Assembly (NCBI GenBank): GCA_029580855.1
Contig: JAKPQH010000065.1
Location: forward strand, 1 to 38,966
DNA: 38,966 nt
Source: a bacterium
Lineage (GTDB): Bacteria > Methylomirabilota > Methylomirabilia > Methylomirabilales > 2-02-FULL-66-22
Direction: 5' to 3'
Shown here: piece by piece, positions 5,861-21,716 of the stretch
Layout: the number at the start of each line of letters is the position of its first letter
How positions within the stretch are numbered: the first letter of the stretch is position 1
Position numbers and translations under genes: made by a program
The notes under the pieces: generated by a model
What the model was told of the DNA's origin: nothing
Database searches by the model: none
What the model saw: the letters and a program-made list of their open reading frames with translations, nothing else

Positions 5861-6397
5861 CTACACGCGCTCCATCTTCCGATACACCACCATCTCGCCT
5901 TCGCGGTTGAGGTCCTCGGGGTGATAGCGGGGGATGGGGGAGACGGTTTGCTTGAGCGTCACCGGCGCGATTTTTTTGTCCGCCAGCCCCACAGCGACGG
6001 CGATGCCGTAAAGAATGGCTTCGGGGCGCGGCGGACAGCCGGGGATGTAAAAGTTCACCGGGACCACCTTCTCGACGGGGCCGAGGACGCTGTAGGCGTC
6101 GTACCAGAGGCCGCCGCCGCAGGCGCAGGAGCCGATGGCGAACACCAGCTTGGGCGCCGCCATGGCGTCGTAGGCGCGACGTAGGGCCTTGGCGGTGGAC
6201 CGCATGGCGGGCCCCTGGCAGAGCATCACGTCGGCATGGCGGGGTGAGCCGACCAGCTTGATGCCGAACCGCTCGACGTCGTAGTAGGGCGTGAGGACGT
6301 TCAGGACCTCGATGTCACAGCCGTTGCACCCGCCGCTGTTGGCGTGGTAGACCCAGAGCGATCGGGGAAACATCTTCCGACACAGCGCACTCAACAC
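5861..6397 (-). CDS. hycG: Group 4 [NiFe] hydrogenase small subunit (HycG/HyfI/NuoB-like)
   Basis: A 178-residue subunit that holds the proximal [4Fe-4S] cluster next to the NiFe site of membrane-bound hydrogenases and is homologous to complex I NuoB. Cluster ligands are visible in SGGCNGCDIE (about residues 22-31), in GSCACGG and in PGCPPRPE. The CNGCDIE form is typical of hydrogenase-3/4, Ech and Mbh small subunits. No twin-arginine signal is present, consistent with a cytoplasm-facing subunit. It is the last gene of the operon and is separated from hycF by a 229-bp gap holding a MITE-like repeat, whereas its other partners abut or overlap. Confidence 0.93.
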   Translation of the reverse strand: MLSALCRKMFPRSLWVYHANSGGCNGCDIEVLNVLTPYYDVERFGIKLVGSPRHADVMLCQGPAMRSTAKALRRAYDAMAAPKLVFAIGSCACGGGLWYDAYSVLGPVEKVVPVNFYIPGCPPRPEAILYGIAVAVGLADKKIAPVTLKQTVSPIPRYHPEDLNREGEMVVYRKMERV

Positions 6398-6442
6398 GGC
6401 TCGCCCCCCTATGGAACCACGGACCGCGGAACGGGCTTGAGT

Positions 6443-6593: not shown

Positions 6594-6626
6594 TCAACAA
6601 CCCCTCCGGTCCATCGGCGGTTTGTG

Positions 6627-7151
6627 TCAATCCAGCTCGATGTCGATATCCCGCACGGTCGGTTCGGTGTCCAGATACGGCGTGGCGTCGTACACCCACC
6701 GCTCCTGCTCCAGCAGGTCCAGCCGGTACCCCTTCAGTTTGAGTTGCTCCAGCGGCCCCGGCTCTTTGAAACAGCGCCCGCACCGCTGACAGGTACCCAT
6801 GAACAGCTCCAGACGCTGCTGCATGTCCCCGATGCGGTTGGTGGCGTTTTCGAAATCGGTGCTCATGGTGATGGCCTTCTCGGGGCAGACGTCGGCACAG
6901 CGGCCGCAGTAGGTGCAGCGGCGGCCCACATACTGGATGATCCGGACCTCCTGGCAGAGGTCGTGGACCAGGATCTCGCGGGCGGGGCAGTTGTTGGCGC
7001 AGCCCGCACAACCGATGCACTTCTCGATGTTGAAGATGGGTCGCCCGCGGAAGCCCGGCGGCGTCCCGGCGGGGACGTGGGGATACGGCAGGGTGACCCG
7101 CCCGGCCTGCAGGCCGATGACGGTTTCTTTGAGCTTGCTCAGGAGCGACAT
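6627..7151 (-). CDS. hycF: Group 4 hydrogenase ferredoxin-like subunit (HycF/HyfH/NuoI-like)
   Basis: A 174-residue polyferredoxin that passes electrons to the small subunit. It contains two classical [4Fe-4S] motifs, CIGCAGCANNCP and CTYCGRCADVCP, in the spacing expected for NuoI/HycF. After them there is an extra C-x2-C-x2-C stretch (CQRCGRC, around residue 120) that standard NuoI lacks, followed by a tail of about 50 residues with many acidic residues. The ATG at 7151 is chosen because the next residues (MSLLSKLKE) look like a NuoI-type amphipathic start; an in-frame ATG at 7166 is equally close to the preceding stop. It lies a few bases after hycD. Confidence 0.92.
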   Translation of the reverse strand: MSLLSKLKETVIGLQAGRVTLPYPHVPAGTPPGFRGRPIFNIEKCIGCAGCANNCPAREILVHDLCQEVRIIQYVGRRCTYCGRCADVCPEKAITMSTDFENATNRIGDMQQRLELFMGTCQRCGRCFKEPGPLEQLKLKGYRLDLLEQERWVYDATPYLDTEPTVRDIDIELD

Positions 7152-7169
7152 GGCGCCAGCCCCCATTTC

Positions 7170-8096
7170 TCAGTAGCCATACAGCGCCAAGAGCAGGGCC
7201 GCCAGCGCGGCCCCCAGAAGTCCTCCGTAATAGCGGACCGCCTGATCGATCCGGTAGCGCGCGTGCGTGGCCGCCACCAGGGTGACGGCCAGGACGAGAA
7301 CCACCAGCTTGGCGAGCAGCGCGGCCAGGTTCAGCGGCGCCGGCAGGCGGCTTCCCCAGGGGAAGAACAGCGACACGACCAGCGATCCGTAGACCACCAG
7401 CTTGGCCATCTGGGTGAACTTGAACAGCGCCAGTTTGGGCCCCGAATACTCGACCAGGGCGCCCTCCATCAGCTCCGTCTCGGCCTCGGCGATGTCGAAG
7501 GGCAGACGCCCGACGAGCGCCTGGAAGGCGAGGATGGCCACGCCGAACATAAGGATGCCGGCCAGGGGCGGCCCGGCCTGGGCGTAGGGGGAGCCGTCGA
7601 GGACCGTCTCCAGTCGCAGGGACCCCGCCCGCACCACCCCCAGGACGACGGCGACGGCGAGGATGGGCTCGAGCGTCATCAGGCACATCATCTCGCGGCT
7701 CATGCCCACCACGGAGTAGGTGGACCCCGCGGCCAGGCCCGCCAGCATGGTGGAGACGCCGCAGAGCGTGAGAAGGTAGACCAGCAGATACGCATCGGCG
7801 GCCCCCGCCAGGGGCGGGGCCGCCCCCATGGGCACCAGCACCGCCACGGTCAGGATCGCCGCGAAGGAGAGCCAGGAGGCCAGGCGCTGAACGGCGGGGC
7901 TCTCGCCCACCTCGAGGTCCTCCTTGCCCAAAAGCTTGAGCAGGTCGTAATACGGCTGCCAGACCGGCGGCCCCTGGCGCGATTGCACCTTGGCCGTGAC
8001 TTTGCGCAGAATCCCCTCGAAGAGCGGAGCCAGCGCCAGCACCAGGGCGACGTTCATGCCGCCGGACAGGACTCGGAGCCCCAGGCTAGTGTCCAT
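7170..8096 (-). CDS. hycD: Group 4 hydrogenase membrane subunit (HycD/HyfC/NuoH-like)
   Basis: A 308-residue integral membrane protein with about eight hydrophobic segments. It is the complex I NuoH homologue that anchors the hydrogenase module. Diagnostic stretches include SRQGPPVWQPYYDLLKLLGKE near the N-terminus and RLPFDIAEAETELMEG in the middle; the second holds the conserved acidic residues next to the quinone or proton pathway. The length matches HycD (307 residues in E. coli, from memory). The ATG at 8096 is preferred; a GTG at 8102 is also in frame. It follows the large-subunit stop by about a dozen bases. Confidence 0.93.
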   Translation of the reverse strand: MDTSLGLRVLSGGMNVALVLALAPLFEGILRKVTAKVQSRQGPPVWQPYYDLLKLLGKEDLEVGESPAVQRLASWLSFAAILTVAVLVPMGAAPPLAGAADAYLLVYLLTLCGVSTMLAGLAAGSTYSVVGMSREMMCLMTLEPILAVAVVLGVVRAGSLRLETVLDGSPYAQAGPPLAGILMFGVAILAFQALVGRLPFDIAEAETELMEGALVEYSGPKLALFKFTQMAKLVVYGSLVVSLFFPWGSRLPAPLNLAALLAKLVVLVLAVTLVAATHARYRIDQAVRYYGGLLGAALAALLLALYGY

Positions 8097-8108
8097 CGCC
8101 ACCCATCC

Positions 8109-9791
8109 TCATGGCGTGCGGGTTGTGCCGCGCGTCAGCTCCAGAAGTTCGGCCTGCGTATAGACGCGGTGCGCCCCCGAGCGGATATCGACGATCTCCA
8201 TCCGATCCGTGCAGGAGAAGCACGGATCGATGCTGCCCAGCGAGATCGTCATGTCGGCGATCTGCTGGTCCTTGATCATGGCGGGGACGCCCTGCAGGTT
8301 CTGGTATGTCGGGGCGCGGACCCGCCAGCGGCGCGGCCGGTTGTTCTCGCCGGTGATGACGAAATGGTGAGACTCGCCGCGGGGCGCCTCCACCGACGAG
8401 AGGCCGACCCGCCCCGCGGGGAGCTCGTCCTGGATCGCGGCCTGGAGCGGCCCCTCCGGCAAATGGTCTAGACACTGCCGGATGATCCGGATGGACTCGA
8501 AGATCTCCAGGGCGCGGACCAGGAGGCGGGCCCACACGTCGCCCCCCTGCTGGGTGATCACGCCGAACTCCACCTCGCCGTAGGCCGCGTAGGGATGATC
8601 GCGGCGGGCGTCGATGTCCACGCCCGCGGCGCGGGCCACGGGGCCGAGCAGGCCGGCTTCCTTGACCAGGGCGGCGTCGGCGACACCCACGCCCCGCGTC
8701 CGCTTCTGGATGTTGCGGTCGCCCGCCACGGCGTCCACCACGGGCCGCCATTCCCGTTCCAGCGTGACCAAGAGGGAGGCCAGCTCCGCCCGCAGCGCCG
8801 GCGTGATGTTCCAGCGGACCCCTCCGATCAGACAGAGGGCGTACGTCTTCCGGTTGCCGCTGATCTTCTCGGCGATCCACATTAGGGGCTCGCGGATCCG
8901 GAAGCACTGCATGAAGAGGGTGTCGAACCCCAGAATGTGGCACGCCAAACCGACCCACAGGAGATGGCTGTGGAGCCGTTCCAGCTCCAGCATGATGGTC
9001 CGGATGTACCGGGCGCGCGGCGGGGGCGTGACCGCCGCGGCCTGCTCCACCGCCTGGGCGTACGCCACGTTGTGGACACAGCCGCAGATGCCGCAGATCC
9101 GCTCCGCCGCCATGGGGATCTCGTTGTAGGTCAGCACCGAGTCGCCCAGCTTCTCGATGGCCCGGTGCGCCATGAAGCCGCGGTACTCGCAGCCGCGCAC
9201 CGTCTCGCCGTCCACAAACAGGCGGAAGTGCGCCGGCTCGTCCAGCGTGGGGTGAAACGGGCCGAAGGGGACGACCATGCAGCCCTCGGGCGGATGGTCG
9301 AATTCGAACCCCCGGTCCTCGTCGAACCCCGGCGGGACGGCATTCCAGGGGTAATCCCGGCGGAGGGGGTGGACGCCATCCGGCCACCCGTCGGGCAACA
9401 CCAGCCGCTTGGGGTAGGGGTGGCCGACGGGTTCGATCCCCACCAGGTCACGAAACTCCCGTTCGGCCCAGTTGGCGGCGGGTACGACATCGGCGATGCT
9501 GTCGACGCGCGGCGGGTTGCCCGGGAGGTAGCTCAGGATGCTGCACAGGACGTGCGCCCGGTCAAAGGCGAAGTCATGGGCCACCAGGAACTTGCCAGAA
9601 ATCGGGCGGTCGTCCAGACCGATGCTGATGACGTAGCGGGCGTCCAGATCCCGGAACACATACCGGCAGATCTCCCGCAGCGCCTGGGGTTCCACGTACA
9701 CGAAGAGACGCCCGTCCTCGGGCATATCGGTGCGCTGGACGACCGGTGCGAACCGCTCGGTGATCTGTCTCAGGACGACGTGTGCTGGCAT
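8109..9791 (-). CDS. hycE: Group 4 [NiFe] hydrogenase large subunit with fused NuoC domain (HycE/HyfG-like)
   Basis: A 560-residue catalytic subunit. Residues 1 to about 165 are a NuoC-like domain (HDFAFDRAHVL, WAEREFRDLVGI, PYPKRLVLPDGWP). The rest is the NuoD/hydrogenase large-subunit fold. Both nickel-ligand pairs are present: ERICGICGC (L1) and DPCFSCTDR (L2), which separates it from complex I, where these cysteines are lost. After L2 there is a tail of about 25 residues following an Arg-Met junction, as in the HycE precursor that HycI cleaves. The catalytic site is therefore expected to be functional and to need endopeptidase processing, consistent with the protease gene two genes upstream. 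The ATG at 9791 starts two bases after the hycC stop codon region. Confidence 0.95.
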   Translation of the reverse strand: MPAHVVLRQITERFAPVVQRTDMPEDGRLFVYVEPQALREICRYVFRDLDARYVISIGLDDRPISGKFLVAHDFAFDRAHVLCSILSYLPGNPPRVDSIADVVPAANWAEREFRDLVGIEPVGHPYPKRLVLPDGWPDGVHPLRRDYPWNAVPPGFDEDRGFEFDHPPEGCMVVPFGPFHPTLDEPAHFRLFVDGETVRGCEYRGFMAHRAIEKLGDSVLTYNEIPMAAERICGICGCVHNVAYAQAVEQAAAVTPPPRARYIRTIMLELERLHSHLLWVGLACHILGFDTLFMQCFRIREPLMWIAEKISGNRKTYALCLIGGVRWNITPALRAELASLLVTLEREWRPVVDAVAGDRNIQKRTRGVGVADAALVKEAGLLGPVARAAGVDIDARRDHPYAAYGEVEFGVITQQGGDVWARLLVRALEIFESIRIIRQCLDHLPEGPLQAAIQDELPAGRVGLSSVEAPRGESHHFVITGENNRPRRWRVRAPTYQNLQGVPAMIKDQQIADMTISLGSIDPCFSCTDRMEIVDIRSGAHRVYTQAELLELTRGTTRTP

Positions 9792-9793
9792 GG

Positions 9794-11767
9794 CTAAGCC
9801 CCGCGCGGCGACGTGTGCGACCCGGTGTCCTGCGGGCTCGGCGCCGGGCGCCGCCCGGACCCGTTGCCGCCGATTTCCGTCGACGTGCCCCCGACCCAGG
9901 GAAGATACCGGGACACCTCGCGGTACAGGTTGCGCGCCCCGTAACGCATCTGATCGGTTTCTGCCACATACCCGCAGAGCCAGGGTTCCGCCCTTCGGCG
10001 GACGGCGCCCCCCGCCAGCGAGATCCCCGCGGCGACGAGGAGGAGCACGGCGACGACGGCGGCCACGACCAGGGGCGACAGGACGGCGAGACCCCCCGGT
10101 CCCGCGACGGTCGCGAGACCCGTTGCCGGGAACGGCGCGACCCCGGCCAGGGTGGCGCCCAGCCCCTGCTGGCTGCCCGCCAGGGCCTGGTGGACGATCC
10201 CAAAGCCGATCCCGGGAACCAAGCCGAGGACCAGGCAGAGGACCGCCAGCGCGATCTGCGGCGCCAGCATCGGCCAGCTCAGGTCCACGGCCTTGGCGGT
10301 GGCGGCCCGCTCGACCACGCGCCGGCTGACGCGGGAAAGGAAGCTCGTCCCAAAAAACTTGAGGAACAGCGCCAGCGTCAGCACGCTCGTCAGCATGGCC
10401 ACGACCGCGCAGACGGCGAGATACGGCGCGTACCGGCTTCCCAGGACCGTCGTGAGAAAGATGCTCCATTTGCTGACAAAGCCGTTGAACAGCGGGATGC
10501 CCGCGATGGAGAAGACCCCCACGAGCGTCGCCGCCGCGGTGGCCGGCATGTATCTGACAAGGCCCCCCATCTCGTTCAGATCCTGGGTATCCGTGGCGTA
10601 CAGGATCGAGCCGGCGTTGAGGAAGAAGAGGCTCTTGAAGAGGCCGTGGTTCAGCGTGTGGAACAGCGACGCGGTAAAGCCGATGGCGGCCAGGACGAGC
10701 GCGTTCTCGTCGGTCGGCCCCGACTTGATGAGCGCCACGCACGCGCCCAGCGGCAGGAGGATGTAGCCGATCTGGCCGATGCTGCTGAAGGCGAGGAGCC
10801 GCTTGGACTGGTCCTGGCCGAGCGCCTGGGTGGTGCCGATGAAGAGGGTTGCCGTCCCCAGCCCCGCGAGGAGCAGTCCCCACACCTCGCCGGGGTACGC
10901 GTCCAGCGCCTCGGCGGGCACCAGCCAGAGAAACGAGCGCATCAAGCCGTAGATACCCGTTTTGATCATGACGCCGGAGAGCAGTGCGCTCACGGGCGAC
11001 GGCGCCGCGGGATGGGCCGCCGGCAGCCAGAGCTGGCCGAAGGGCCACAGGCCCGCCTTGATCCCGAATCCGATGAGGAAACAGAGCAGACCGGCGGCCG
11101 CAACACCGCCTCCCGTCCGGAGCAGTTCGGGCAGACCGTGGCCGATGGCTTCGAAGTCGTAGCGCATGAGCGCCTCGCCGGCCAGCGTCACCGGTCCCCG
11201 CGCCAGCAGACCCGCGCCCAGCAGGATGAAGCCGCACGCGGCCTCCATGGCGATGAGGTAGCGGATCGCCGCCCGCACGTTCGCGCGCGTCTTGTACTCG
11301 AAGCGGATCAAGGCGTAGGAGGACAGCGTCATCAGTTGCCAGAGCAGGAAAAACCCAGCCATGAGGTCCGTGACGACCACGATGCCGTACATGCCGGCGA
11401 CAAAGAGCAGGAAGTAGGGATAGTACCGATACAAGGCATAATCGGGATAGTGCTCCATGTACTGGATGGAGTAGAGCGCGGCGAGCGCCGACACCACCGC
11501 GATCAGCAGCAGGAACACGGCGCTCAGACCGTCGACGGAGATGCGGAGGGCCGAGGCGTACTCGGGCAGGGCCCAAAGCGTGAAAGCTTTTCCGGGTCCG
11601 GAGATCAGCACGCTCGCCGCGGCGCCCGCGGTCAAGAGGCCGGCCAGCCCCGAGATCACCGCGGCCACGCGGCCCGCCAGCGGGCGATTGCGACACACCG
11701 GGATCACCAGCAACGCGCCCGCCAGCAACAGGGCGACGGCGGCCACCACGACGATTTCGGCGGTCAT
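9794..11767 (-). CDS. hycC: Group 4 hydrogenase antiporter-like membrane subunit (HycC/HyfB-like)
   Basis: A 657-residue membrane protein of the NuoL/M/N and Mrp antiporter family with some 14-16 hydrophobic segments. It shows the antiporter core (LLWQLMTLSSYALI, FGIKAGLWPFGQLWLPAAHPAAPSPVSALLSG with key Lys and His, and SIGQIGYI). The C-terminal region RRAEPWLCGYVAE and RYGARNLYREV is characteristic of HycC/HyfB. It is the only antiporter-type subunit here: there is no HyfD, HyfE or HyfF partner, so the complex is of the small, hydrogenase-3-like architecture. It probably couples H2 formation to ion translocation, an inference from homologues. Its start overlaps the upstream endopeptidase gene by 4 bp. 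Confidence 0.93.
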   Translation of the reverse strand: MTAEIVVVAAVALLLAGALLVIPVCRNRPLAGRVAAVISGLAGLLTAGAAASVLISGPGKAFTLWALPEYASALRISVDGLSAVFLLLIAVVSALAALYSIQYMEHYPDYALYRYYPYFLLFVAGMYGIVVVTDLMAGFFLLWQLMTLSSYALIRFEYKTRANVRAAIRYLIAMEAACGFILLGAGLLARGPVTLAGEALMRYDFEAIGHGLPELLRTGGGVAAAGLLCFLIGFGIKAGLWPFGQLWLPAAHPAAPSPVSALLSGVMIKTGIYGLMRSFLWLVPAEALDAYPGEVWGLLLAGLGTATLFIGTTQALGQDQSKRLLAFSSIGQIGYILLPLGACVALIKSGPTDENALVLAAIGFTASLFHTLNHGLFKSLFFLNAGSILYATDTQDLNEMGGLVRYMPATAAATLVGVFSIAGIPLFNGFVSKWSIFLTTVLGSRYAPYLAVCAVVAMLTSVLTLALFLKFFGTSFLSRVSRRVVERAATAKAVDLSWPMLAPQIALAVLCLVLGLVPGIGFGIVHQALAGSQQGLGATLAGVAPFPATGLATVAGPGGLAVLSPLVVAAVVAVLLLVAAGISLAGGAVRRRAEPWLCGYVAETDQMRYGARNLYREVSRYLPWVGGTSTEIGGNGSGRRPAPSPQDTGSHTSPRGA

Positions 11768-12279
11768 GATCGCTCCCCACAGGCGGCGACGGGTTCGAGT
11801 CGGACGGAGATGAGCGTCTCGACCAGGAGGTCGCGGAGAGTCTCCAGCGTCCTCCGCAGCGGCGCCGACAACCCGGCACCGTGGGCCACGGTGTACGGCT
11901 GGGCCCCGAGAAGGAACACGCGGGTCGGCCCCGCCGCCTCGATCAGTCTGGCGATGGCTCCCAGCGACAGCTTGTGGGTGGAGACCTGCGGGTACCGCGC
12001 CGCGATCTCGGGCCCTGCCAGGAAAATCACGTCGCCGGGGGCGGCCTCGATTCCCACCGCGTCCAGAAAGACGACGCTCTGAAACCCGCCCCGCGCCAGC
12101 CGGTCGGTCCAGCGCTCGGGCGTCCGCTCGGCCAGGATCACGTCGGCATGACCGCGGTCGCGCACCGCCTCCGCCAGCCGGAGCCCGAACGCGTCGTCCC
12201 CTCGATCCAGATTGCCGACACCCACCAAACAGACGCGCCCCGCGAGGCGCCGGCGCAGTTCATCGCGCAGGGTCGGCAT
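11764..12279 (-). CDS. hycI: [NiFe] hydrogenase maturation endopeptidase (HycI-like)
   Basis: A 171-residue M52-type protease that trims the C-terminus of a nickel-loaded large subunit. The motif VGVGNLDRGDDAFG (about residues 19-32) contains the metal-binding Asp of the family, and FLDAV supplies the second conserved acidic position. It sits directly before hycC and hycE, and the HycE-like subunit keeps a cleavable tail after DPCFSCTDR, so I infer that this is its dedicated protease. The other protease in the operon (16208-16741) would then serve HoxH. It overlaps hydG by one base and hycC by four. Confidence 0.88.
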   Translation of the reverse strand: MPTLRDELRRRLAGRVCLVGVGNLDRGDDAFGLRLAEAVRDRGHADVILAERTPERWTDRLARGGFQSVVFLDAVGIEAAPGDVIFLAGPEIAARYPQVSTHKLSLGAIARLIEAAGPTRVFLLGAQPYTVAHGAGLSAPLRRTLETLRDLLVETLISVRLEPVAACGERS

Positions 12280-13127
12280 CAGATGACCTCCCCCAGCCGC
12301 TTGATCTGCTCGTAGGTGAAGACCGGGCCGTCGACACACACGTACGCCAACCCGATGCAGCAGTGGCCGCATTTTCCCACGCCGCACTTCATGTATCGCT
12401 CGAGGGTGGACATGATGTTCCGGTCCTCGAACCCCATCTCTTTGAGGTCGCGGATCACGAAACGGAACATGACGGGAGGCCCGCACACGAACGCGGTCGT
12501 GTTCTCGACGGGGACCGTGACCCCCGGCTTTCGGAACAGGCTGCCCACCACCCCCACGTGGCCGGTCCACTGCTCGTCGGCGCGGTCCACCGTGAGGTAA
12601 CACTCGAACCCGCGGCTCATCTCCCATTCGTGCAACGCGCCGAGGTACATGAGGTCCTTGAGACCGCGCGCCCCGTAGAAGAGCTGGATCTTGCCGTAGC
12701 GGTGCCGGTTGTCCAGCGCGTAGTTGAGACAGGACCGGAGAGGGATGAGGCCGATGCCTCCGGCCACGAACAACAGGTTCCGGCCAAAATACTCCCGCAT
12801 GGGGAACCCGTTGCCGTACGGACCCCTGACGCCAAATCGGTCCCCGGGCCGGAGCTGGTGCAGGGCGGCGGTCACGCTGCCCACCCGCCGGACGGTGAAA
12901 AAGAGCTCTTCCTCGGTCGGGCTGGGGGGGAGCGACGCGGGGAACTCGCCGGCGCCGAAGACCGACACCTGCGCAAACTGGCCCGGCAGGAATCTGCGGA
13001 ACGCCGCCTGCTCCGCCGGATCCTCGAAGTGCCAGTAAAACGTCCGGACGTCGGCGATCTCCTCGACCACGCGGTCCAGGACTGCGATCTTGGGAAGATA
13101 GACGTTCTCAGTGGGCGACTGGCTCAT
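12279..13127 (-). CDS. hydG: HydG-like FAD/NAD(P)-binding electron transfer subunit (sulfhydrogenase gamma / AsrB family)
   Basis: A 282-residue ferredoxin-NADP reductase-fold protein that exchanges electrons between NAD(P)H and iron-sulfur partners. An FAD-binding beta-barrel comes first (RFLPGQFAQVSVFG about residue 45; RGPYGNGFP about 105), then the nucleotide-binding half (FVAGGIGLIPLRS, FYGARGLKDLMY, FVCGPPVMF). The C-terminus has the family [2Fe-2S] ligands in MKCGVGKCGHCCIG plus a Cys in YVCVDGPVF. The ATG at 13127 is chosen because it gives a typical N-terminus and overlaps the hydB end by 20 bp. In Pyrococcus this subunit partners HydB and a soluble hydrogenase; here it lies between a formate-dehydrogenase-like protein and a membrane hydrogenase. 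Confidence 0.9.
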   Translation of the reverse strand: MSQSPTENVYLPKIAVLDRVVEEIADVRTFYWHFEDPAEQAAFRRFLPGQFAQVSVFGAGEFPASLPPSPTEEELFFTVRRVGSVTAALHQLRPGDRFGVRGPYGNGFPMREYFGRNLLFVAGGIGLIPLRSCLNYALDNRHRYGKIQLFYGARGLKDLMYLGALHEWEMSRGFECYLTVDRADEQWTGHVGVVGSLFRKPGVTVPVENTTAFVCGPPVMFRFVIRDLKEMGFEDRNIMSTLERYMKCGVGKCGHCCIGLAYVCVDGPVFTYEQIKRLGEVI

Positions 13128-14190
13128 GGCGCTCGCTCTCCGCCGTGGCACGGCGCAGGGTCTCCACAACGTTGGGCATGCCGATGTCCCCGTGGCAGAC
13201 CTCGATGCAGCGGCCGCAGCCGACGCAGGCCACCGACAGCTCGCGCTGGATGAAATAGTGGGCGAGCTTCCGGAAGAATCGCCGGTTTCGCCGATCGTGG
13301 GCCGCCTTTCGCGGATTGAAGCCTCCCGCCATCCGGGTGAAGCCCCCGAGGGCGCAGGCGTCCCATATCCGTACGCGCTCGTAGTCGGCGGGACCCACCT
13401 GGCGCTCGGTGACCGTGAAGCACGTGCAGGTCGGGCACATGTAACTGCAGCCGCCGCACTCCAGGCAGCGGTTCCCGATCTGTTCCCAGGTCCCTTCGCT
13501 GATCAACTCGCCGGTGATGTAACGGACGGTCGAGGCGTACCAGCTCGTGGCCACCTTGAAGCGCTTGCGCACGTCGGTCAGGATCTGCCGGCGCCGGGAC
13601 AAGTGGGCGGGCGTCCCCTTGCGGAACATGGGGTGGGCGAAATATGCCTCGCCCTTCTCGGTGCCGGCCACAACCAGGAACTCGTTGCCCAGGTCCATGA
13701 TCTGGAGGTCGAAGTGGTCGCGCGCGGCCGGGCCGGTGTCGGCGCACATGCAGAAGCAGTCGTCGTCGATGTCGAGGTCCGGGTCGGTGCACACCACGTT
13801 CACCAGGAAGAGATCCCGGCGGTGACGCTCGTAATAGGCATCCCTGAAGTCGCGGCCGAGGTAGAAGCGGTCCAGGTGATTGATGCCGGCGGTGTCGCAG
13901 GAGCGGATGCCGAAGATGGCGCGTCGCGGCGCTTCCTCGCAGGGCTGGATGCGCGGGTGGTCGTTCAGGTGGAACCGGAGCAGGCGCTCGATATGGGGCA
14001 GGACGTACCGTTTGGGCGGATAATAGGGGTTCGGGATGTGGATCTGGACCAGATGCCGGTTGGCATCGGTCACGGTGTCGAAGCAGGTATCCCGACCGCG
14101 GCCGTAGAAGGGGGCGATCACCTCGTACTCCTCGCGGAGGAGGTCCACCAGGGTGAGGAGATTCGCCTTGTCGGTGACTCGTGCCCGCAT
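13108..14190 (-). CDS. hydB: HydB-like iron-sulfur subunit (sulfhydrogenase beta / AsrA family)
   Basis: A 360-residue polyferredoxin that relays electrons between the HydG flavoprotein and a catalytic partner. It has the family signature FGIRSCDTAGINHLDRFYLG around residues 93-112, then CTDP and CFCMCADTGP, and near the C-terminus two [4Fe-4S] motifs: CLECGGCSYMCPTCTC and CVGCGRCIEVC. The length fits HydB and AsrA. The ATG at 14190 lies two bases after the stop of the molybdopterin protein. Long open frame upstream of this start is only read-through of the neighbour's other frame. It should form a heterodimer with HydG. Confidence 0.92.
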   Translation of the reverse strand: MRARVTDKANLLTLVDLLREEYEVIAPFYGRGRDTCFDTVTDANRHLVQIHIPNPYYPPKRYVLPHIERLLRFHLNDHPRIQPCEEAPRRAIFGIRSCDTAGINHLDRFYLGRDFRDAYYERHRRDLFLVNVVCTDPDLDIDDDCFCMCADTGPAARDHFDLQIMDLGNEFLVVAGTEKGEAYFAHPMFRKGTPAHLSRRRQILTDVRKRFKVATSWYASTVRYITGELISEGTWEQIGNRCLECGGCSYMCPTCTCFTVTERQVGPADYERVRIWDACALGGFTRMAGGFNPRKAAHDRRNRRFFRKLAHYFIQRELSVACVGCGRCIEVCHGDIGMPNVVETLRRATAESERHEPVAH

Positions 14191-14192
14191 GG

Positions 14193-16223
14193 TCAGACCC
14201 TTTCCAGCCGGACGCAGACCGGCAGGCGGCTGCTCCGCGTGGCGGCGCCCGCCTCGCCCCAGAGCTGCTCGCGGACCTCGCGGAGAAAAAAGGGAACAAA
14301 GATCATGCCCGACTTGACCTCGGGGGTGACGCGGGCGGTGGTCACGGCGGTGCCGGTCACGCCGACGAGCCGCACCTTGGCGCCGTCGCGGATTTCGTGT
14401 TTCCGGGCGTCCTCTGTGTTGATATCCACGAAGCCGTCGGGGTAGTCCAACAGGAGGATCTGGTATTCCCGCTTGAGGGTCTCGCTGTGCCGGACCAAGA
14501 CGTTCTGGTGCCAGTAGTAGAGCGAGTGGCCAAAGCTGAGCGTGAACGGGAAGTCCAGGGAGGCGCAGGGCGGGCGGCTGGGCCGCGGGATCGGGGTCAG
14601 ACAAAACGGTCGTCCGACAACCCCCTCTTCGTACACGAATCGCGTGCCCAGCGGCTTGTCCGTTGTGCACGGCCACTGCCGGCCGTAGTCCCGGACCAGG
14701 TTGTCGTACCCGGCGGCACCGTAGGCGGGGACCGCCCGGCCGATTTCGCGCATGACCTCGGCGCTGGAGGCGTAATCCCAGCCGGCGCCGAGCCGGTTGG
14801 CGAGATCCACGATCTGGCGCCAGGCGGGTGCGAGGCCCGGCGGCGGGTCCACCGCCTTGCCGACCAGCTGGATGCGGCGCTCCGTGTTCGTGTAGGTGAC
14901 CTGCTCCTCGCCGAAGGCGGCCACGGGCAGGACGACGTGCGCGTGCTTGGCCGTTTCGGTGAGGAACGGATGCTGGACGATGACCAGGTCCAGCTGGCGG
15001 AGGACGGCGGCGGCGTCGGCGGAGGCGGCCATGACCGGGTCGTGGCGGCAGAGCCAGAGGGCCCGCACGGCGCCCTTTCCGGTTCGGGTGAGCAGCTCCT
15101 CCGCGCCTTGGCCGGGCTTGGCGGACAGCGGTGCGCCCCACAAGACCTCGAAGCGGCGCCGCCCCGCGTTGTCCGTCACGGGCACGTAGCCGGGGAAGCG
15201 GTTGGGCAGCATACCCATGTCGCACACGCCCTGGAGGTTGTTGTGCTCGGTGAGGGCGAAGACGCCCGCCCCCGCCTTGCCGATGTTTCCGGTCAGCAGG
15301 GCCAGGTTGATCAGCGCCTGGACCGCCTCGACGCCGCTCGCCTCGACGCCCGTGGAGAAGAGGATGGCGGCGCTGCGGGCGCGACCGTAGGTCTGCGCCG
15401 CCTCCTCGATCAGCTCGGAGGGGATGCCGCAGGCATCGGCGGCCCAGAGCACGTCGTAGGCGTGGACCGTCTCCAGGAAGGCGTCCACGTTCCGGCAGTG
15501 CGCCTTGAGGAAGCGCGCGTCCAGGAGCCCACGGTCCACGATCACCTTGGCCATGGCCCCGTACAGGGCGGCGTCGCTTCCGGGCCGCAACTGCAGGAAA
15601 TGGTCGGCGTGCTCGGCGAGGCGGTGGCGGCGCGGATCGATGACGATCAGCTTGCGCCCTTTCAGCTTGGCCCGCATGACCCGCCCCCCGATGGTGGGAA
15701 GCTGCAGCCCCAGATCCACGCCGTTGACGATGATGGTCTCGCTGGCATCCAGCTCGCCGACGGAGTTGGTGCTGGCGGGGACGCCCAGCATGGCCAAGAG
15801 CACGTCGATGCTGTTGTGCCGGTAGGCGCCCAGGCCGTGGTCCACGTTGTTCGTGCCGATGAAGGCCCGCGCGAATTTTTGGAGAAGGTAGCTCTCTTCG
15901 TTGGAGCCGCGCGGGGAGTTCACGAAACCGATGGCGTTGGGCCCGGCCTTCCCCTGGATCTGCCGCAGCCGGTCGCCCACGTAGCCGAGCGCCTCGTCCC
16001 AGGAGACTTCCCGCAGGTCGCCGTTCTTCCGGAGCATCGGGTGCAATAGGCGATCGGGCGCGCTGGCGACCTCGTTCACGTGCCACCCGCGCACGCAGAT
16101 CCGACCCTGGTTGGTCGGATGGGTCATGCTGGGGTACGCGCCGGTCAAGACGTTCCCCGCGCTCTCGAGGTAGATCCCGCAGCCCACACCACAGAACGTG
16201 CAGGTGGTCAGCGTGTGGGACAT
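14193..16223 (-). CDS. Formate-dehydrogenase-like molybdopterin oxidoreductase lacking the canonical catalytic triad
   Basis: A 676-residue protein with the full fold of formate dehydrogenase alpha subunits. The N-terminal [4Fe-4S] ligands are C8, C11, C15 and C43 (TTCTFCGVGCG, GRICVRGW). Pterin-binding stretches follow (INLALLTGNIGKAGAG, HNNLQGVCDMGMLP). The expected Mo ligand is missing: after NNVDH, where formate dehydrogenases have Cys/Sec-His, this protein reads GLGAYRHNS (Y134-R135-H136), so Sec/Cys is absent. The catalytic Arg of the VRGQNNVQG motif is replaced (ALTEHNNLQG, T325). The usual Lys after the last cluster cysteine is Arg (R45). The frame is intact and not a pseudogene. I infer an electron conduit, or an enzyme with unusual chemistry, rather than a normal formate dehydrogenase. 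AGGAGG eight bases upstream supports the ATG at 16223. Confidence 0.85.
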   Translation of the reverse strand: MSHTLTTCTFCGVGCGIYLESAGNVLTGAYPSMTHPTNQGRICVRGWHVNEVASAPDRLLHPMLRKNGDLREVSWDEALGYVGDRLRQIQGKAGPNAIGFVNSPRGSNEESYLLQKFARAFIGTNNVDHGLGAYRHNSIDVLLAMLGVPASTNSVGELDASETIIVNGVDLGLQLPTIGGRVMRAKLKGRKLIVIDPRRHRLAEHADHFLQLRPGSDAALYGAMAKVIVDRGLLDARFLKAHCRNVDAFLETVHAYDVLWAADACGIPSELIEEAAQTYGRARSAAILFSTGVEASGVEAVQALINLALLTGNIGKAGAGVFALTEHNNLQGVCDMGMLPNRFPGYVPVTDNAGRRRFEVLWGAPLSAKPGQGAEELLTRTGKGAVRALWLCRHDPVMAASADAAAVLRQLDLVIVQHPFLTETAKHAHVVLPVAAFGEEQVTYTNTERRIQLVGKAVDPPPGLAPAWRQIVDLANRLGAGWDYASSAEVMREIGRAVPAYGAAGYDNLVRDYGRQWPCTTDKPLGTRFVYEEGVVGRPFCLTPIPRPSRPPCASLDFPFTLSFGHSLYYWHQNVLVRHSETLKREYQILLLDYPDGFVDINTEDARKHEIRDGAKVRLVGVTGTAVTTARVTPEVKSGMIFVPFFLREVREQLWGEAGAATRSSRLPVCVRLERV

Positions 16224-16741
16224 CCCGTGATCCTCCTGTGTCTGCGGGTGGCGTCGGTCGCACGGCGGCTCCGCCGGACGGTCCGCGTCGGCGCCGGTGA
16301 CGACGCCAGCAGCCGCCGCACGGTCTCGAGGGCGTCGCCGACACCGCGCTCGGCCAGCGGGGAGAGCGGCGCCCCGAACACGAACTCGGCCGCCGGGATC
16401 GTGACCCACCAGGCCTCCGGCCAGCGGCCGAACGCGTCCCGGGCGAGGGCGAGGAGCCCCGGCGGATCGCAGGTGTGCGCGAGGCGTGGGGTCGAGCCGG
16501 CGGGGCGGAGGCGTCGGACGCGAATGCCGGCGCCGTTCGGGGCCGGGTGGGCGTCCAGAAAGATGGCACGATCGGCCGCGGCCAGGGGGTCGGCCAGCTC
16601 CGGCGTGAGCTGGTGCAGGGCGTGCACCTCGACACCGGGCAACGCCCACGCGGCGACCCGGGCCGCCGCGTGCTGGCCGGCGGCGTCGTCGCCTCGAAGG
16701 TCGTTGCCGTACCCGACGACCAGGATCATACCCGCGCGCAT
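16208..16741 (-). CDS. hoxW: [NiFe] hydrogenase maturation endopeptidase (HoxW-like)
   Basis: A 177-residue M52-type endopeptidase with the motif VVGYGNDLRGDDAAG (about residues 8-22) and IFLDAHP carrying the second metal-binding Asp. It follows hoxH by 24 bp, the usual place for HoxW, and HoxH keeps a C-terminal extension after DPCLSCSTH, so HoxH is the probable substrate. GGAG six bases upstream of ATG 16741 decides the start. The last 50 residues are rich in Arg and overlap the start of the molybdopterin gene by 16 bp, which ties the Hox block and the downstream block into one transcription unit. Confidence 0.87.
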   Translation of the reverse strand: MRAGMILVVGYGNDLRGDDAAGQHAAARVAAWALPGVEVHALHQLTPELADPLAAADRAIFLDAHPAPNGAGIRVRRLRPAGSTPRLAHTCDPPGLLALARDAFGRWPEAWWVTIPAAEFVFGAPLSPLAERGVGDALETVRRLLASSPAPTRTVRRSRRATDATRRHRRITGCPTR

Positions 16742-16765: not shown

Positions 16766-18190
16766 TCAGGACCGCCAGACCTCGTCCACGACGCTGCCGT
16801 CGGCGGCCACCAGGCGCACTTGGAGGGGCATGGCGCCCGCGGCGTGCGTCGAACAGCTCAAACAGGGGTCGTAGGCCCGGATGCCGGCCTCGACCCGGTT
16901 CAGCATGCCCTCGGGGATCTCGGGGCCGTGGATGTAGTGCCGCGCGATCTGCGCCACGGTCCGGTTCATGGCGAGATTATTCTGACCCGTGGCGATAATC
17001 AAGTTCACTTTTCGGATCAGGCCGAATTCGTCCACGTGGTAATGGTGGAACAGCGTGCCGCGCGGCGCCTCGCTCACCCCCACCCCCTCCAGCTGGTTGA
17101 TCCCCGCGTCGGCGCGCAGGCGCTGGGAGCCCAGGTCCGGATCGTCCAGCAACCGCTCGATCTTTTCGACGGCCGCCAGAATCTCGACCAGGCGCGCATG
17201 GTGGTAGCGAAACGAGGAGATGGCCGTACCGTTGGCACGGTCGCGGAATTCGCGCAATTCCTGATCGGCCAGCGGCGTGCCGATGTGCGAGCAGACGTTC
17301 AACCGCGCCAGCGGGCCCACCCGGTACATCCCGCCGGGGTAGCCGAGCGGCCGATAGTAGGGCGACTTCAGATAGGAGTGAGGCTCTACCGCCTCGCCGA
17401 TGAACTGCCGGTACCGACGGGCCTCCAGTCGGTCGGCGATGGCGTTGCCGGCGCTGTCCACGACGCGGAGGTGGCCGTCGTAATGTTCCCATGCGCCGTC
17501 GTGGCCGACCAGCCCCATGAAGAGACTGGGGAAATTGCCAAAGATGTGCACCTCCCCCTCGAAGGAGGGCAGCATACGCTTGAAGCGGCTCAGCGTGGCC
17601 AGTATGGTGGCGCGCGCCTCGGGGATGCGGTCGCGGATGTGGGCGTGGGATTCCTTGGACAGCGGCGAGCGCACGCCGCCGGGCACGGCCCAGGCGGGGT
17701 GGATTTTCTGTCCGCCGAGGTGGGCGATGATCTCCTGCCCGAACTGCCGCAGCCGGATGCCGGCGCGAGCCAACTCGGGCTCGGCGGCGACCAGCCCGAA
17801 GACGTTGCGGGCGGCCGGGTCGCTGTCAAAGCCGAGAAGGAAATCCGGCGAGCTGAGGTGGAAGAAGCTCAGCGCGTGGGACTGGACGATCTGGCCCAGG
17901 TTCATCAGCCGCCGTAGCTTTTCCGCGGCGGGGGGCACGCTGACCGCCAAAATCTGGTCCCCGGCCTTGGCCGAGGCCAGCAGGTGGCTCACCGGACAGA
18001 TACCGCAGACCCGCGCCGTGATCCCCGGCATTTCGTAGAGCGGACGGCCCTCGCAGAAGCGCTCGAAGCCTCGGAACTCGGTGACGTGAAATCTGGCGTC
18101 GGTCACCTGTCCCGCGTCGTCGAGGTAGATCGTGATCTTGGCATGGCCTTCGATGCGCGTGACCGGGTCGATGACAATCCGTTGCGCCAT
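16766..18190 (-). CDS. hoxH: NAD-linked [NiFe] hydrogenase large subunit HoxH (group 3d)
   Basis: A 474-residue catalytic subunit of the bidirectional, cytoplasmic Hox hydrogenase. Nickel ligands are in [10 protein letters not shown] (L1, around residue 60) and [11 protein letters not shown] (L2, around residue 442). HoxH-specific context is clear in [20 protein letters not shown] and RNVFGLV. About 28 residues follow the L2 histidine and would be removed by the endopeptidase encoded next. The ATG at 18190 is chosen over an upstream TTG at 18214 because it directly gives the conserved [15 protein letters not shown]. All catalytic residues are present. Confidence 0.96.
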
Positions 18191-18247
18191 GAGCGATCTC
18201 GTCTCCGTGTACAATCGGTCGCGGCGGCGGTTCCACTGCGCCCGCGT

Positions 18248-18790
18248 TTAGCCGAATTTCAGATCCCGTCCCGCCAGCACGGGCTGCCGGCCCGCCATGA
18301 CCTGCTCCAGGACCGCCCGGATGCGGTCCGCCGGAGGCGGGCAGCCCGGCAGGAAGGTGTCCACCCGGACGACTTCGTGCAACGGCAGCACGCGGTCGAG
18401 GAGCACCGGCACGATCCCCGGATCGGCCGGGATCTGGGCGGCGACATCCGCGGCCTCCAGGTAGGCGCGGGTGAGCACGGGCTCCGCGGTGCCGAGCGGG
18501 TTCCGCATGGCGGTGACGTTGCCGGTGACGGCGCAGTCGCCAAAGGAAACCAGGTGCGTTGTCCGCCGCCGGATCCGCCGGATCAGGTGGAGATGCTCGT
18601 CGTTGGCGACCGCCCCTTCGACGAGGGCGACGTCCACGCCCTCCGGGTACTCCTTGATATCGGCGATGGGGCTGTACACCAGCCGGACCCGCTCGGCCAG
18701 GGTGATGAGCCCCTCGTCCAAGTCGAGGAACGACATGTGGCAGCCCGAGCAGCCGCCCAGCCAGACGGTGGCCAGCCTTATCGGATCCAT
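18248..18790 (-). CDS. hoxY: NAD-linked [NiFe] hydrogenase small subunit HoxY
   Basis: A 180-residue small subunit carrying the single proximal [4Fe-4S] cluster of Hox hydrogenases. Ligands are visible in [11 protein letters not shown] (about residues 10-20), FGDCAVTGN and [10 protein letters not shown]. There is no Tat signal, as expected of a cytoplasmic enzyme. It overlaps hoxU by 13 bp and precedes hoxH by 57 bp. Confidence 0.95.
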
Positions 18791-19494
18791 TGCTGTTTCT
18801 CCCGCGCCGTGACGATAAACTCCAGTCGCCACCGGTCGCGCTCCATCTCGGCCACGCTCACCCCGCGCCGGAAGATGGCGCCGGTCGGGCAGGCCTGCAC
18901 GCACTTGCCGCAGGCGGTGCAGCTCTTGGCCTGCCCCCAGGGCTGGTTCAGGTCGGTGATGACGTGGGCCTGGGCGCCGCGGCCCGCCATGTCCCAGGTG
19001 TGCGCGCCCTCGATCTCGTCGCAGACTCGGATGCAGCGCGCGCACAGGACGCACCGGTTGTGGTCGATCCCAAAGCGCTCGTGGGTGACGTCCACCTCGA
19101 GCGACGGGAAGACGTAGTCGAAGCGGACGTGGTCCATGCCCACGGCCACGGCCAGGTCCTGCAGCTCGCAATGGCCGTTGGCCACGCAGACGGCGCAGAT
19201 GTGGTTGCGTTCGGCGAAGAGCAGTTCGAGGATCATCCGCCGGTACTCGCGGATCCGGTCGGTGTTTGTCCGGACCTCCATGCCCTCGGCAACCTTGGTG
19301 ACGCAGGAGGGGACCAGTCGGTTGCTCCCGGCGATCTCCACCAGGCAGAGCCGGCACGCGCCGAGCGTGGAGACCCCCTCGAGACGACACAGCGCGGGGA
19401 TAAAAATCCCGGCCTCCCGGGCGGCCTCGAGGACTGTCTGGTCGGCGCTGGCGCTGACCAGCTGATCATCGATGGTGAGTGTCTTTACAGGCAT
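18778..19494 (-). CDS. hoxU: Hox hydrogenase diaphorase iron-sulfur subunit HoxU
   Basis: A 238-residue NuoG-N-terminus-like electron relay between HoxF and HoxY. It has an N-terminal plant-type [2Fe-2S] site ([21 protein letters not shown] region, more than one Cys pair), the His-Cys3 site [15 protein letters not shown] around residue 100, and two [4Fe-4S] motifs, [11 protein letters not shown] and [12 protein letters not shown]. The length is typical of HoxU. It sits 64 bp after hoxF. Confidence 0.95.
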
Positions 19495-19558
19495 GATCGC
19501 CGACCTCGTATGGGTTTGGTCAACGGGACCTGGCCGGGAACGCGCGCGCTCGGCGGTC

Positions 19559-21175
19559 TCACGCCGCCGCGGAAGGCGGCTCCGGTTTCGCCAGAAAGGC
19601 TTCGTACTCGGGCCGGAAGTAGCGCAGCGTGCTCAGCACCGGGTTCGGGGCGGACTGCCCGAGCCCGCACAGGCTGGTCTGTTTGACCATGGTGCACAGC
19701 TGATCCAGGGTGTCCAGGTCCTGCGCCACGGCGCGTCCTTCCCGGACCTTGTCCAGCAGATGGAGGATCTGGGCCGTCCCGGCCCGGCACGGGACGCACT
19801 TGCCGCAAGATTCGTCTTTACAGAACTCCATAAAGAAGCGCGCCACATCCACCATGTTGTTCTGCTGGTCGATCACGATCATGCCGCCGGAGCCCATGAT
19901 GGAGCCCAGGCTGGCCAGCGACTCGTAATCCACGGGGGTGTCCAGCGCCTGGGTGGGGATACAGCCCCCGGACGGGCCGCCGGTCTGGACGGCCTTTACG
20001 GTGCCGCCGTCGGGGACCCCGCCGCCCATCTCCTCGATGATGGTCCGGAGCGGCGTGCCCATCGGGACCTCGATGAGGCCGGTGTTCTTGATCTTGCCCG
20101 CCAAGGCGAAGACCTTGGTGCCCTTGCTCTTCTCCGTCCCGATCTTGGCGAACCACTCCGCCCCGTTTCGGATGATGGCGGGAATGTTGGCGAAAGTCTC
20201 CACGTTGTTGATGAGGGTCGGGAAACCCCACAACCCGTGTTCCGCCGGATACGGGGGGCGCGGCCGGGGTGTGCCGCGCTTCCCCTCGATGGAACCCATC
20301 AGGGCCGTTTCCTCGCCGCAGACGAACGCCCCGGCACCGATGCGCAGATCGACGCGGAAATGGAAAGGCGACTCGAAGATCTGGCTCCCCAGGAGGTCCA
20401 GTTTCCTGGCCTGGCGGATGGCGGTCTGCAGCCGGCTGATGGCCAACGGATACTCGCCGCGCACGTAGATAAAACCCTGGTCCGCGCCCACCGCGTAGGC
20501 CGCGATCGCCATACCTTCCAGCACACGGTGGGGATCGCTCTCCAGGACGCTCCGGTCCATAAAGGCGCCCGGGTCACCCTCGTCGGCGTTGCAGACGATG
20601 AACTTCCGCTCGCTCTTGACCTTGGCGACCAGCGCCCACTTCAGGCCGGTGGGGTACCCGGCCCCCCCGCGTCCCCGCAGGCCGCTCTTGATGATGGTGT
20701 CGATCACCTCGGTGGGCTTCATCTCTCGGAGCGCGTGATAGAGCGGCTGATAGCCGTTGGCGGCGATGTAATCTTCGATCCGCTCCGGGTCGATCTTCCC
20801 GCTGTTCTCCAGGACGATGGGGACCTGTCGGGTAAAGAACGGGTGGTTGAAGTCGGCCTGCTTGGCCGTGGCCGGGCCTCTACCTGTCAGGGCGGCGACG
20901 ATGGAGGGCGCATCGCCCGGCGTGACTTTCTCGTAAAGAATATTCTCCGGATCGACGGCCACCAGCGGCCCGCCGCTGCACAAGCCCAGGCATCCCACCC
21001 CGGTGACCTGGACGCTCCCGGCGAGACCCGCTTCGGCCACGGCTGCCTCCAGGCTCTGCTTGACGGCCTGCGCGTTTGCCGAGAGACATCCCGCGGCGAC
21101 GCAGACACGGAGGCGGATCCCGGTCTGACCCTGGCGCTCCTTCTCGCCGATTTCAAGCAGCTCGGTCAGATCCAT
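19559..21175 (-). CDS. hoxF: Hox hydrogenase diaphorase subunit HoxF (NADH-binding flavoprotein)
   Basis: A 538-residue NuoF-like subunit that oxidises or reduces NAD(H) through FMN. The N-terminal thioredoxin-like [2Fe-2S] region shows [11 protein letters not shown] and [10 protein letters not shown]. The NADH/FMN-binding core has [16 protein letters not shown] around residue 170, [13 protein letters not shown] and GAYVC-type [13 protein letters not shown]. The C-terminal [4Fe-4S] site is [13 protein letters not shown] plus a Cys in SLCGLG. It is complete for HoxF and overlaps hoxE by 23 bp. Confidence 0.96.
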
Positions 21176-21716
21176 TCTCGAGCCATCCTTTCAAGTGGTC
21201 CACGATGCTGTCGGGCGTCTGGCGGCCGACCACCGTTCCATCCAGGACGACGGCGGGGGCGATGCCGCAGGCGCCAATGCAACGCGCCTGGATGAGGGAC
21301 ATGCGGCCGTCGGCGCGGGTCTCGCCCGAGCGGACCTTGGCGTAGTCCTCGACGGTCTTCACCAGGGTTGCCGCGCCTTTGACGTAGCAGGCCGTGCCCA
21401 TGCAGATGGCGCATGTGTGTCTGCCCTTGGGCTTCAAAGAAAAGAAATGGTAGAAGGTAGCGACGCCGTAGACCCGGCTCGGCGGAAGCCTCAGCCCCTG
21501 CGCGATGTACACGAGAAGCTCCGGATCGAGATACCCGTAGAGCTCCTGGGCGGTATGCAAGACCTCGATGAGGGCGTCGGGTTGGTACTGGTGCCGCTTC
21601 ATGGTTGCGGCAAGCGTTTTCAACCGGCTGTCGACTGTGGGCCCCATGCCCGGACCTCGGCCGTCGCTCTGGGTCTTCGGGGACGTGGCTACGCTCGACT
21701 CCATCGGTGTCTCCAT
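21153..21716 (-). CDS. hoxE: Hox hydrogenase diaphorase subunit HoxE (NuoE-like)
   Basis: A 187-residue thioredoxin-like [2Fe-2S] protein, first gene of the operon. Cluster ligands are in [13 protein letters not shown] and [10 protein letters not shown]. The helical N-terminal part ([35 protein letters not shown]) is typical of NuoE/HoxE. The start could be the ATG at 21716 or one four codons later at 21704, which has GGAG seven bases before it; I give the longer form. A HoxE is present in pentameric HoxEFUYH enzymes but absent from the tetrameric Ralstonia type. Confidence 0.93.

Follow-up and report, generated by a model that had tools for sequence, protein, structure and literature searches.

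A formate-dehydrogenase-like protein with a replaced metal site heads a conserved gene cluster for a predicted NAD(P)H-linked membrane [NiFe] hydrogenase

The window analysed here, a 38,966-nucleotide stretch of bacterial DNA (GenBank assembly GCA_029580855.1, contig JAKPQH010000065.1, Methylomirabilota), encodes on its minus strand (14193..16223) a 676-residue FdhF-like protein to which the name FdhX is given here. The residues expected at the metal site of a formate dehydrogenase are replaced in this protein and in its relatives, and its gene heads a conserved cluster of hydrogenase genes. FdhX is probably a docking and electron-transfer piece, lacking both a metal site and a molybdenum or tungsten (Mo/W) cofactor, of a predicted NAD(P)H-linked membrane [NiFe] hydrogenase.

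The reading frame runs from 16223 to 14193 without internal stops, on a strand that the first-pass annotation had left unstated, and is overlapped by another long frame on the plus strand (14181-16049). Its start is overlapped by 16 nt by the upstream frame and HydB begins 2 nt past its stop, a spacing that fits translational coupling. Three molybdopterin-oxidoreductase domains are recognised by Pfam (PF00384, PF04879 and PF01568), with the molybdopterin [4Fe-4S] domain starting from residue 3 and no match to Fer2 or NADH-G_4Fe-4S_3. The top NCBIfam model is TIGR01591 (formate dehydrogenase alpha subunit), matched with 559.9 bits and thus under its cut-off of 666.25, and the nearest solved chain is 9t1s_L from an F420-linked formate dehydrogenase (441 bits). 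Identity to Escherichia coli FdhH is 35% over 668 columns (354 bits), and to E. coli NuoG 23% over 483 columns (51 bits).

Residue correspondences were taken from a MAFFT alignment of 161 of the 167 FdhX rows with 18 formate dehydrogenases, rows L044, L070, L071, L073, P0027 and P0071 being dropped for length or a broken frame. The 167 family rows comprise 121 proteins (the query included) and 46 loci, some of which duplicate a database protein or each other, and the 18 references are E. coli FdhH and 17 loci (L011-L027) from the phylogenetic neighbourhood of the window genome. FdhX reads NNVDHGLGAYRHNSID at the former metal site and ALTEHNNLQG in the Arg333 region. In the computed alignment, Y134 falls on the cysteine or selenocysteine (Sec) at position 140 of FdhH, R135 on His141, R45 on Lys44, and T325, E326 and H327 on Arg333, Gly334 and Gln335, respectively. 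Thus, the replacements first proposed, namely those of the Cys/Sec-His pair, of the Arg in VRGQNNVQG and of the Lys after the last cluster Cys, all hold in the alignment; since it is R135 that aligns on His141, H136 is not the catalytic His. Cys/Sec140, Lys44 and Arg333 are present in 18/18 references (as Sec in FdhH, L012 and L013) and His141 in 16/18, with Gln in L023 and L024.

The losses extend through the family. Positions 45, 134 and 135 are not covered by P0027 and L073, nor position 325 by L071 and L073, so that each site is read in 165 rows. Position 134 is Y in 151 of these, F in 9, H in 4 and S in 1, with neither Cys nor Sec; position 135 is C in 91, R in 37, S in 23, T in 6, G in 5, A in 2 and V in 1, with no His; and position 325 is T in 141, A in 18, S in 3, and N, M and C in one row each, with no Arg. 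Arg occupies position 45 in 165/165 covering rows, including L070, which is out of frame there. A shifted metal ligand in the form of the Cys frequent at position 135 (91/165) was considered and rejected, the other 74 rows having Arg, Ser, Thr, Gly, Ala or Val. The N-terminal [4Fe-4S] site, by contrast with the metal site, was described at the outset as present, and it is nearly invariant family-wide: the window protein keeps C8, C11, C15 and C43, the last followed by R45, and among rows with a residue at the site Cys is found in 160/160, 161/161, 161/161 and 163/165, respectively. Ser replaces C43 in two rows, P0039 and L036, and one of the 163 rows with Cys is the out-of-frame L070. As described for FdhH, the K44R exchange nearly keeps the cluster, with about 7% of activity left and a Km for formate raised 32-fold (PMC12176258).

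The supply of the cofactor was followed in the genomes from which the loci come, that of L035 excepted, and in G000, G004 and G006; these make 46 handles and, G060 being taken as G006 and G084 as G004 on account of identical matches, 44 distinct genomes. Synthesis genes were found in about half of the 46 handles (MoaC 23, MoaE 23, MoeA 26, MoaA 22), and the completeness control RRF in 45 (43/44 distinct genomes). Formate dehydrogenases are known to need the sulfuration chaperone FdhD. It was found in only one of the 46 handles (44 distinct genomes), the sole match lying in the Anaeromyxobacter genome of L071, and the window genome was negative. Counted by distinct genome, 18/44 have none of the four synthesis genes, 20/44 have all four and 6 have some of them, and RRF is found in all 18 without detected cofactor genes. 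The controls were 40 related genomes with a formate-dehydrogenase-type match and no FdhX, of which 37 have MoaC and 35 have FdhD; in the 17 controls whose Cys/Sec140, Lys44 and Arg333 were checked (L011-L027), these figures are 17/17 and 15/17. Fisher tests of the 44 against the 40 genomes give p 4e-17 for FdhD (1/44 vs 35/40) and p 3e-5 for MoaC. The key residues are near-identical between 17 cofactor-less and 17 cofactor-complete FdhX rows (Y134, for instance, in 17/17 and 16/17), and the two states require at least 10 changes on the FdhX tree. Because 18 of the 44 genomes lack detected synthesis genes, FdhD is found in one, and the key residues are near-identical in both states, we infer from the genomes that FdhX very likely works without a Mo/W cofactor.

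These data bear directly on a rival view in which FdhX would remain a Mo/W enzyme, its metal bound by Tyr as a new ligand or by no protein ligand, and would act on formate or on something else. Much of the pterin region is conserved, arsenite oxidase is described as requiring no protein ligand (PMC10100899), and all four cofactor genes are present in 20/44 carriers; the 18 genomes in which none was detected, however, encode FdhX with near-identical key residues, FdhD occurs in 1/44, and position 134 is not fixed, being F, H and S as well, so that we regard such an enzyme as very unlikely. Its more specific form, an active enzyme with Tyr as ligand, was rejected on the near-identical key residues of FdhX in genomes without detected cofactor genes. 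A check with PF00384 in 28 genomes (the 18 cofactor-less ones and 10 others) found, in each of the 18, one full-length match, taken as FdhX, and one other PF00384 protein, which in 17/18 matches only part of the profile (in two pieces in G065) and is a candidate NuoG. The cofactor-complete G063 and G090 likewise have just two PF00384 proteins each. In G095, without detected cofactor genes, a full-length non-FdhX match lies at G095:C230:5789-6985 in a 742-aa frame, possibly another cofactor-free member such as ActB.

The pterin-binding stretches had at first been taken to be all present, which proved right only in part. The 18 references agree to at least 94% at 185 positions. FdhX retains the reference residue at 93 of these, a position counting as retained when at least 90% of rows have it; at 65 the consensus differs, and the changed conserved positions include a 2-residue deletion at FdhH T300-Q301. 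Moreover, at 21 positions, R45, W47, E294, E326, R393 and D593 among them, one near-invariant residue has given way to another, and mean column identity across 37 diverse FdhX members is 74%. The former metal site is remodelled and under selection, without drift. Such switching between near-invariant residues, together with the high column identity, would also be expected if the former cavity bound a different redox cofactor or a nucleotide, making FdhX a repurposed redox enzyme and no shell. However, a salt-bridge network filling an empty cavity could give the same pattern, and the structure model is uncertain exactly at the cavity; we consider this repurposing unlikely. In that model (37 rows) the mean predicted local distance difference test score (pLDDT) is 72.1, confidence is weak around the former active site, and values fall under 50 at 132-136, 326-341 and 437-458, among other stretches. 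A Foldseek search with the model adds little, its first eight rows listing formate dehydrogenases.

FdhX is not unique to the window organism. Among the database matches listed, at least 120 relatives are 60-92% identical to it, and a genome scan gave 45 loci, one of which (L074, 36% over 53 residues) was set aside to leave 44. By record titles and NCBI ranks, the sources are labelled Methylomirabilota, Verrucomicrobiota, Acidobacteriota, Omnitrophota, Lentisphaerota, Planctomycetota and Armatimonadota, with one further label from an Anaeromyxobacter bin, and metagenome bins make up nearly the whole set. A quick tree of 63 rows, built by maximum likelihood, places the 45 FdhX rows on one side of a branch with a Shimodaira-Hasegawa-like approximate likelihood ratio (SH-aLRT) support of 100, facing the 18 formate dehydrogenases, although the program warned of long branches separating the two groups. 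The first-pass annotation had pictured a formate-dehydrogenase fold stripped of its metal site in parallel to NuoG, beside hydrogenase genes, and had suggested looking for homologues with the same signatures in the same setting. This main idea holds: the homologues found form one branch with the same loss, their gene neighbourhood is constant across several phyla, and some of them occur in genomes without detected cofactor genes. In the phylum of G062, a sample of 288 genomes searched at E 1e-150 gave no FdhX beyond that of G062 itself, so the family is rare there. In G001 and G005, which belong to the genus of the window genome, the codon for the metal ligand of a formate dehydrogenase is TGA, which likely encodes Sec, and no FdhX match stood above the scan threshold.

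The spread of the family also bears on whether FdhX could be an assembly error or a pseudogene in one metagenome bin. The window genome does have a contamination value of 9.24%, but against at least 120 listed database clusters at 60-92% identity, 44 loci, an open frame and coupled neighbours this explanation retains next to no probability, and a decayed copy is refuted by the intact frame and the family-wide conservation. That the gene is intact and coupled, as had been noted from the window, is thereby borne out, the frame having no stops, the spacing being tight and the same losses recurring in all 165 covering rows of 167. At L071 (10001-11990, Anaeromyxobacter), FdhX ends at 293 aa and is directly followed by HycF and HycG, with HydB through HycD absent. 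A natural minimal form was considered for this short FdhX and dismissed, since the locus has no HydB, HydG or HycE; a deletion or misassembly is likely.

The adjoining HydB and HydG genes and the membrane hydrogenase noted at the start recur in relatives as a conserved cluster, in which FdhX is followed by HydB, HydG, a maturation protease and a formate-hydrogenlyase-type core of HyfB-like, HycE, HycD, HycF and HycG proteins. All are on the minus strand of the window. HydB (13108..14190, 360 aa) is an AsrA-like Fe-S subunit with two CxxCxxCxxxC motifs, whose closest solved chain is 9nez_B (sulfhydrogenase 1 beta); HydG (12279..13127, 282 aa) is an AsrB-like predicted NAD(P)-binding flavoprotein with PF00175, PF10418 and a [2Fe-2S] motif, closest to 9nez_C (sulfhydrogenase 1 gamma). 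Both miss their NCBIfam equivalog cut-offs, with 136.3 vs 750 bits for HydB and 210.8 vs 650 bits for HydG. The HycI-type maturation protease (11764..12279) has PF01750 and passes the TIGR00072 cut-off, and the HyfB/HycC-like antiporter-type membrane subunit (9794..11767) has hydrogenase 4 subunit B as its best NCBIfam match, under the cut-off. HycE (8109..9791), a [NiFe] large subunit in a fused C/D form, has both nickel-ligand motifs and is closest to 7z0s_E, formate hydrogenlyase subunit 5 (422 bits), followed by 6cfw_L, the alpha subunit of a membrane-bound hydrogenase (233 bits). The remaining core genes encode a HycD/NuoH-like membrane subunit (7170..8102, NCBIfam scan), a HycF-like 2x[4Fe-4S] subunit (6627..7166, named from sequence and motifs) and a HycG/NuoB-like small subunit (5861..6397, NF005012 over its cut-off). 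The operon is otherwise tight, and a 229-nt gap between HycF and HycG (6398-6626) holds the repeat-like text GCAGATGACGCAGATTGG.

Conservation of this arrangement was counted over relatives of the window genes at the 44 loci, only loci with sufficient contig downstream of FdhX entering each count. HydB was found near FdhX in 40/42, HydG in 41/42, HycI in 39/42, HyfB in 37/40, HycE in 36/37, HycD in 33/34, HycF in 31/31 and HycG in 30/30, and the exceptions include L071 with its truncated FdhX and L044 with broken frames. The motifs are likewise kept: the N-terminal nickel motif of HycE in 39/39, the C-terminal one in 38/39 and both in 38/39 loci, the two-cluster motif of HydB in 42/43, the two clusters of HycF in 38/38 and the [2Fe-2S] motif of HydG in 41/41, so that the hydrogenase parts look functional as far as motifs can indicate. 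No HycB-like gene was seen among the window cluster genes, no dedicated HycB search having been run in the loci, and no family of unmatched neighbour genes in the other loci is shared by more than 7 of them. L038, L048, L054 and L060 each show two separate matches to the HyfB-like antiporter-type subunit, not one.

Named families suggest a division of labour in which HydG would be the NAD(P)H/flavin module, HydB an Fe-S relay, HycE the H2 site, and HycD and the HyfB-like subunit the ion path. The system would descend from a formate hydrogenlyase, with FdhF as the source of electrons that reached the HycE [NiFe] site by way of HycB and HycF; the present cluster has a HydB-HydG module and no HycB-like gene was seen in it. 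NAD(P)H would give up a hydride to the flavin of HydG, and electrons would travel from the HydG [2Fe-2S] centre through the [4Fe-4S] clusters of HydB, then HycF and HycG, to the [NiFe] centre, their flow being coupled to ion movement via HycD and the HyfB-like subunit; when H2 is plentiful the flow may run in reverse. FdhX would have been retained as the holder of HydB against HycF, with its single [4Fe-4S] cluster acting either as an electron relay at the HydB/HycF junction or as a dead-end branch. Formation of the complex, NAD(P)H as donor, the direction of flow, ion coupling and the exact place of FdhX are all put forward here as inferred. On a broader scale, we are evenly divided over whether the system arose when a formate hydrogenlyase had its formate dehydrogenase emptied, gained a flavin module and so became an ion-pumping hydrogenase driven by NAD(P)H, which would be an independent re-run, with the [NiFe] site kept, of the step proposed for NuoG of complex I.

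The role of the cluster in FdhX brings in the possibility that the protein is a scaffold, which overlaps with the preferred explanation, as the latter allows the cluster either role. The inactive FdhF-like domain of StnC is reported to have clusters that form a non-functional branch required for assembly (PMC10482914), FhcB is given as a scaffold without Mo/W cofactor (PMC10100899), and a lone cluster makes a poor through-wire once the metal centre is gone. Against this, the cluster ligands of FdhX are almost perfectly kept, and R45 keeps the positive charge that, in the account of the FdhH K44R variant, helps to hold the cluster (PMC12176258). A scaffold in its own right is a serious contender that we place slightly short of an even chance, conduit and scaffold roles being taken at roughly even odds.

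Several points weigh against FdhX as a docking and electron-transfer piece without cofactor. Overall deviation by itself proves little: at 108 strictly invariant reference positions, FdhX rows break 27-39% (mean 30%), and leave-one-out breakage of the references is 0-5% for sixteen of them, 19% for L016 and 26% for FdhH, so that by this measure FdhX is just somewhat more aberrant than FdhH, the difference lying in which residues are broken. Of the references, 17/18 come from the window's own phylogenetic neighbourhood, with FdhH as the other. The old cavity is strongly selected (93/185 kept, 21 switched) and could hold something else. All four cofactor genes are present in 20/44 FdhX genomes, the window genome itself has MoaC, MoaE and MoeA with no MoaA match, and the safeguard against incomplete genomes behind the loci is the RRF control together with the missing of all four genes at once. 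Finally, E. coli FdhF is described as contacting HycB and HycF (PMC9474812), which makes docking by HydB a guess.

Upstream of FdhX, also on the minus strand, lie a likely maturation protease of the upstream hydrogenase (16208..16741, without a Pfam match, its role suggested by position) and a second hydrogenase operon with NuoE-, HoxF-, HoxU-, HoxY- and HoxH-like genes (16766..21716), which runs straight into the FdhX cluster and lies outside its conserved part. A place for this Hox-like hydrogenase in the conserved system was rejected, since HoxH and HoxY stand beside FdhX, apart from the window, only in L030 (equal to L009, the same genome). The other Methylomirabilota locus, L055, has no HoxH or HoxY match in 10 kb upstream. 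In L069 (1-4500, a Lentisphaerae bin), HoxF-, HoxU- and NuoE-like genes occur about 6-10 kb upstream of FdhX without HoxY or HoxH. The window HoxH resembles 7t2r_D (530 bits), from an electron-bifurcating NiFe hydrogenase, more than it does 5xf9_D (449 bits), from an NAD-reducing one.

That this fold can lose the cofactor is already known from NuoG/Nqo3, FhcB and ActB (PMC10100899), and an inactive FdhF-like domain is known from StnC (PMC10482914); FdhX would be a further variant. With formate dehydrogenase H/FdhA (TIGR01591; E. coli FdhF, 9t1s FdhA, HDCR FdhF) it has in common the fold, the length and the N-terminal [4Fe-4S] site, yet it lacks Cys/Sec140, His141, Arg333 and Lys44, falls under the TIGR01591 cut-off and comes from genomes of which 1/44 has FdhD. 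The window cluster resembles the E. coli formate hydrogenlyase (FdhF-HycBCDEFG) in its HycE-, HycD-, HycF-, HycG- and HycC/HyfB-like core and its FdhF-like protein; it differs in having HydB and HydG with no HycB-like gene seen, and in that the place of FdhF is held by FdhX, from which the catalytic residues are missing. NuoG/Nqo3 of complex I likewise has a formate-dehydrogenase fold that lost Mo/W, within the same superfamily of complexes (PMC10100899, PMC9474812). FdhX, however, has no N-terminal ferredoxin-like domains, is far nearer to FdhH than to E. coli NuoG (354 vs 51 bits), and is predicted to partner a subunit in which the [NiFe] motifs are retained.

StnC, from the Stn transhydrogenase, is described as having an inactive FdhF-like domain beside an NADPH-binding module, a setting like that of FdhX; in contrast with the free-standing FdhX, whose gene lies by a membrane [NiFe] hydrogenase, it spans 1172 aa and includes fused GltD- and hydrogenase-like parts (PMC10482914). 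The solved chains most similar to HydB and HydG in this cluster are the beta and gamma subunits of sulfhydrogenase 1 (AsrA/AsrB), and the Fe-S motifs match. Sulfhydrogenase HydB and HydG serve a soluble hydrogenase, whereas those of the window sit with FdhX and a membrane hydrogenase. A further description to compare is that of an 'enigmatic' region in Saganbacteria RX5A, with a group 4 hydrogenase, asrA, asrB and a molybdopterin-type protein called a formate dehydrogenase by hidden Markov models (HMMs) and unplaceable by phylogeny (PMC6349859). The likeness is by description only, and that region adds cooF and Mrp-like genes; in the accessible text of the paper, neither lost active-site residues nor cofactor independence is reported for the RX5A protein (PMC6349859). 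In the open-access literature, the scope of our search, no report was found of a lost site or of cofactor-free genomes for the FdhX system.

The Mo/W cofactor is stated to have been lost in three lineages, Nqo3, ActB and FhcB, all tied to aerobic physiology, and a substantial share of the cytoplasmic formate dehydrogenase set of that study is said to be without the required Cys and was placed in the Nqo3 family (PMC10100899); FdhX may thus be hidden there. Alongside StnC, FdhX would add an example from the metabolism of H2 and redox carriers. A step from formate hydrogenlyase to complex I has been raised as a possibility (PMC9474812), and the union of a HycE-type core with an NAD(P)H-type module via a metal-less formate-dehydrogenase fold would offer a testable parallel to it. 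The family also matters for annotation, because the sources behind the listed matches mostly name its members formate dehydrogenase subunits or YjgC-type/molybdopterin oxidoreductases, and such names would wrongly give uncultured bacteria a formate metabolism and a need for molybdenum.

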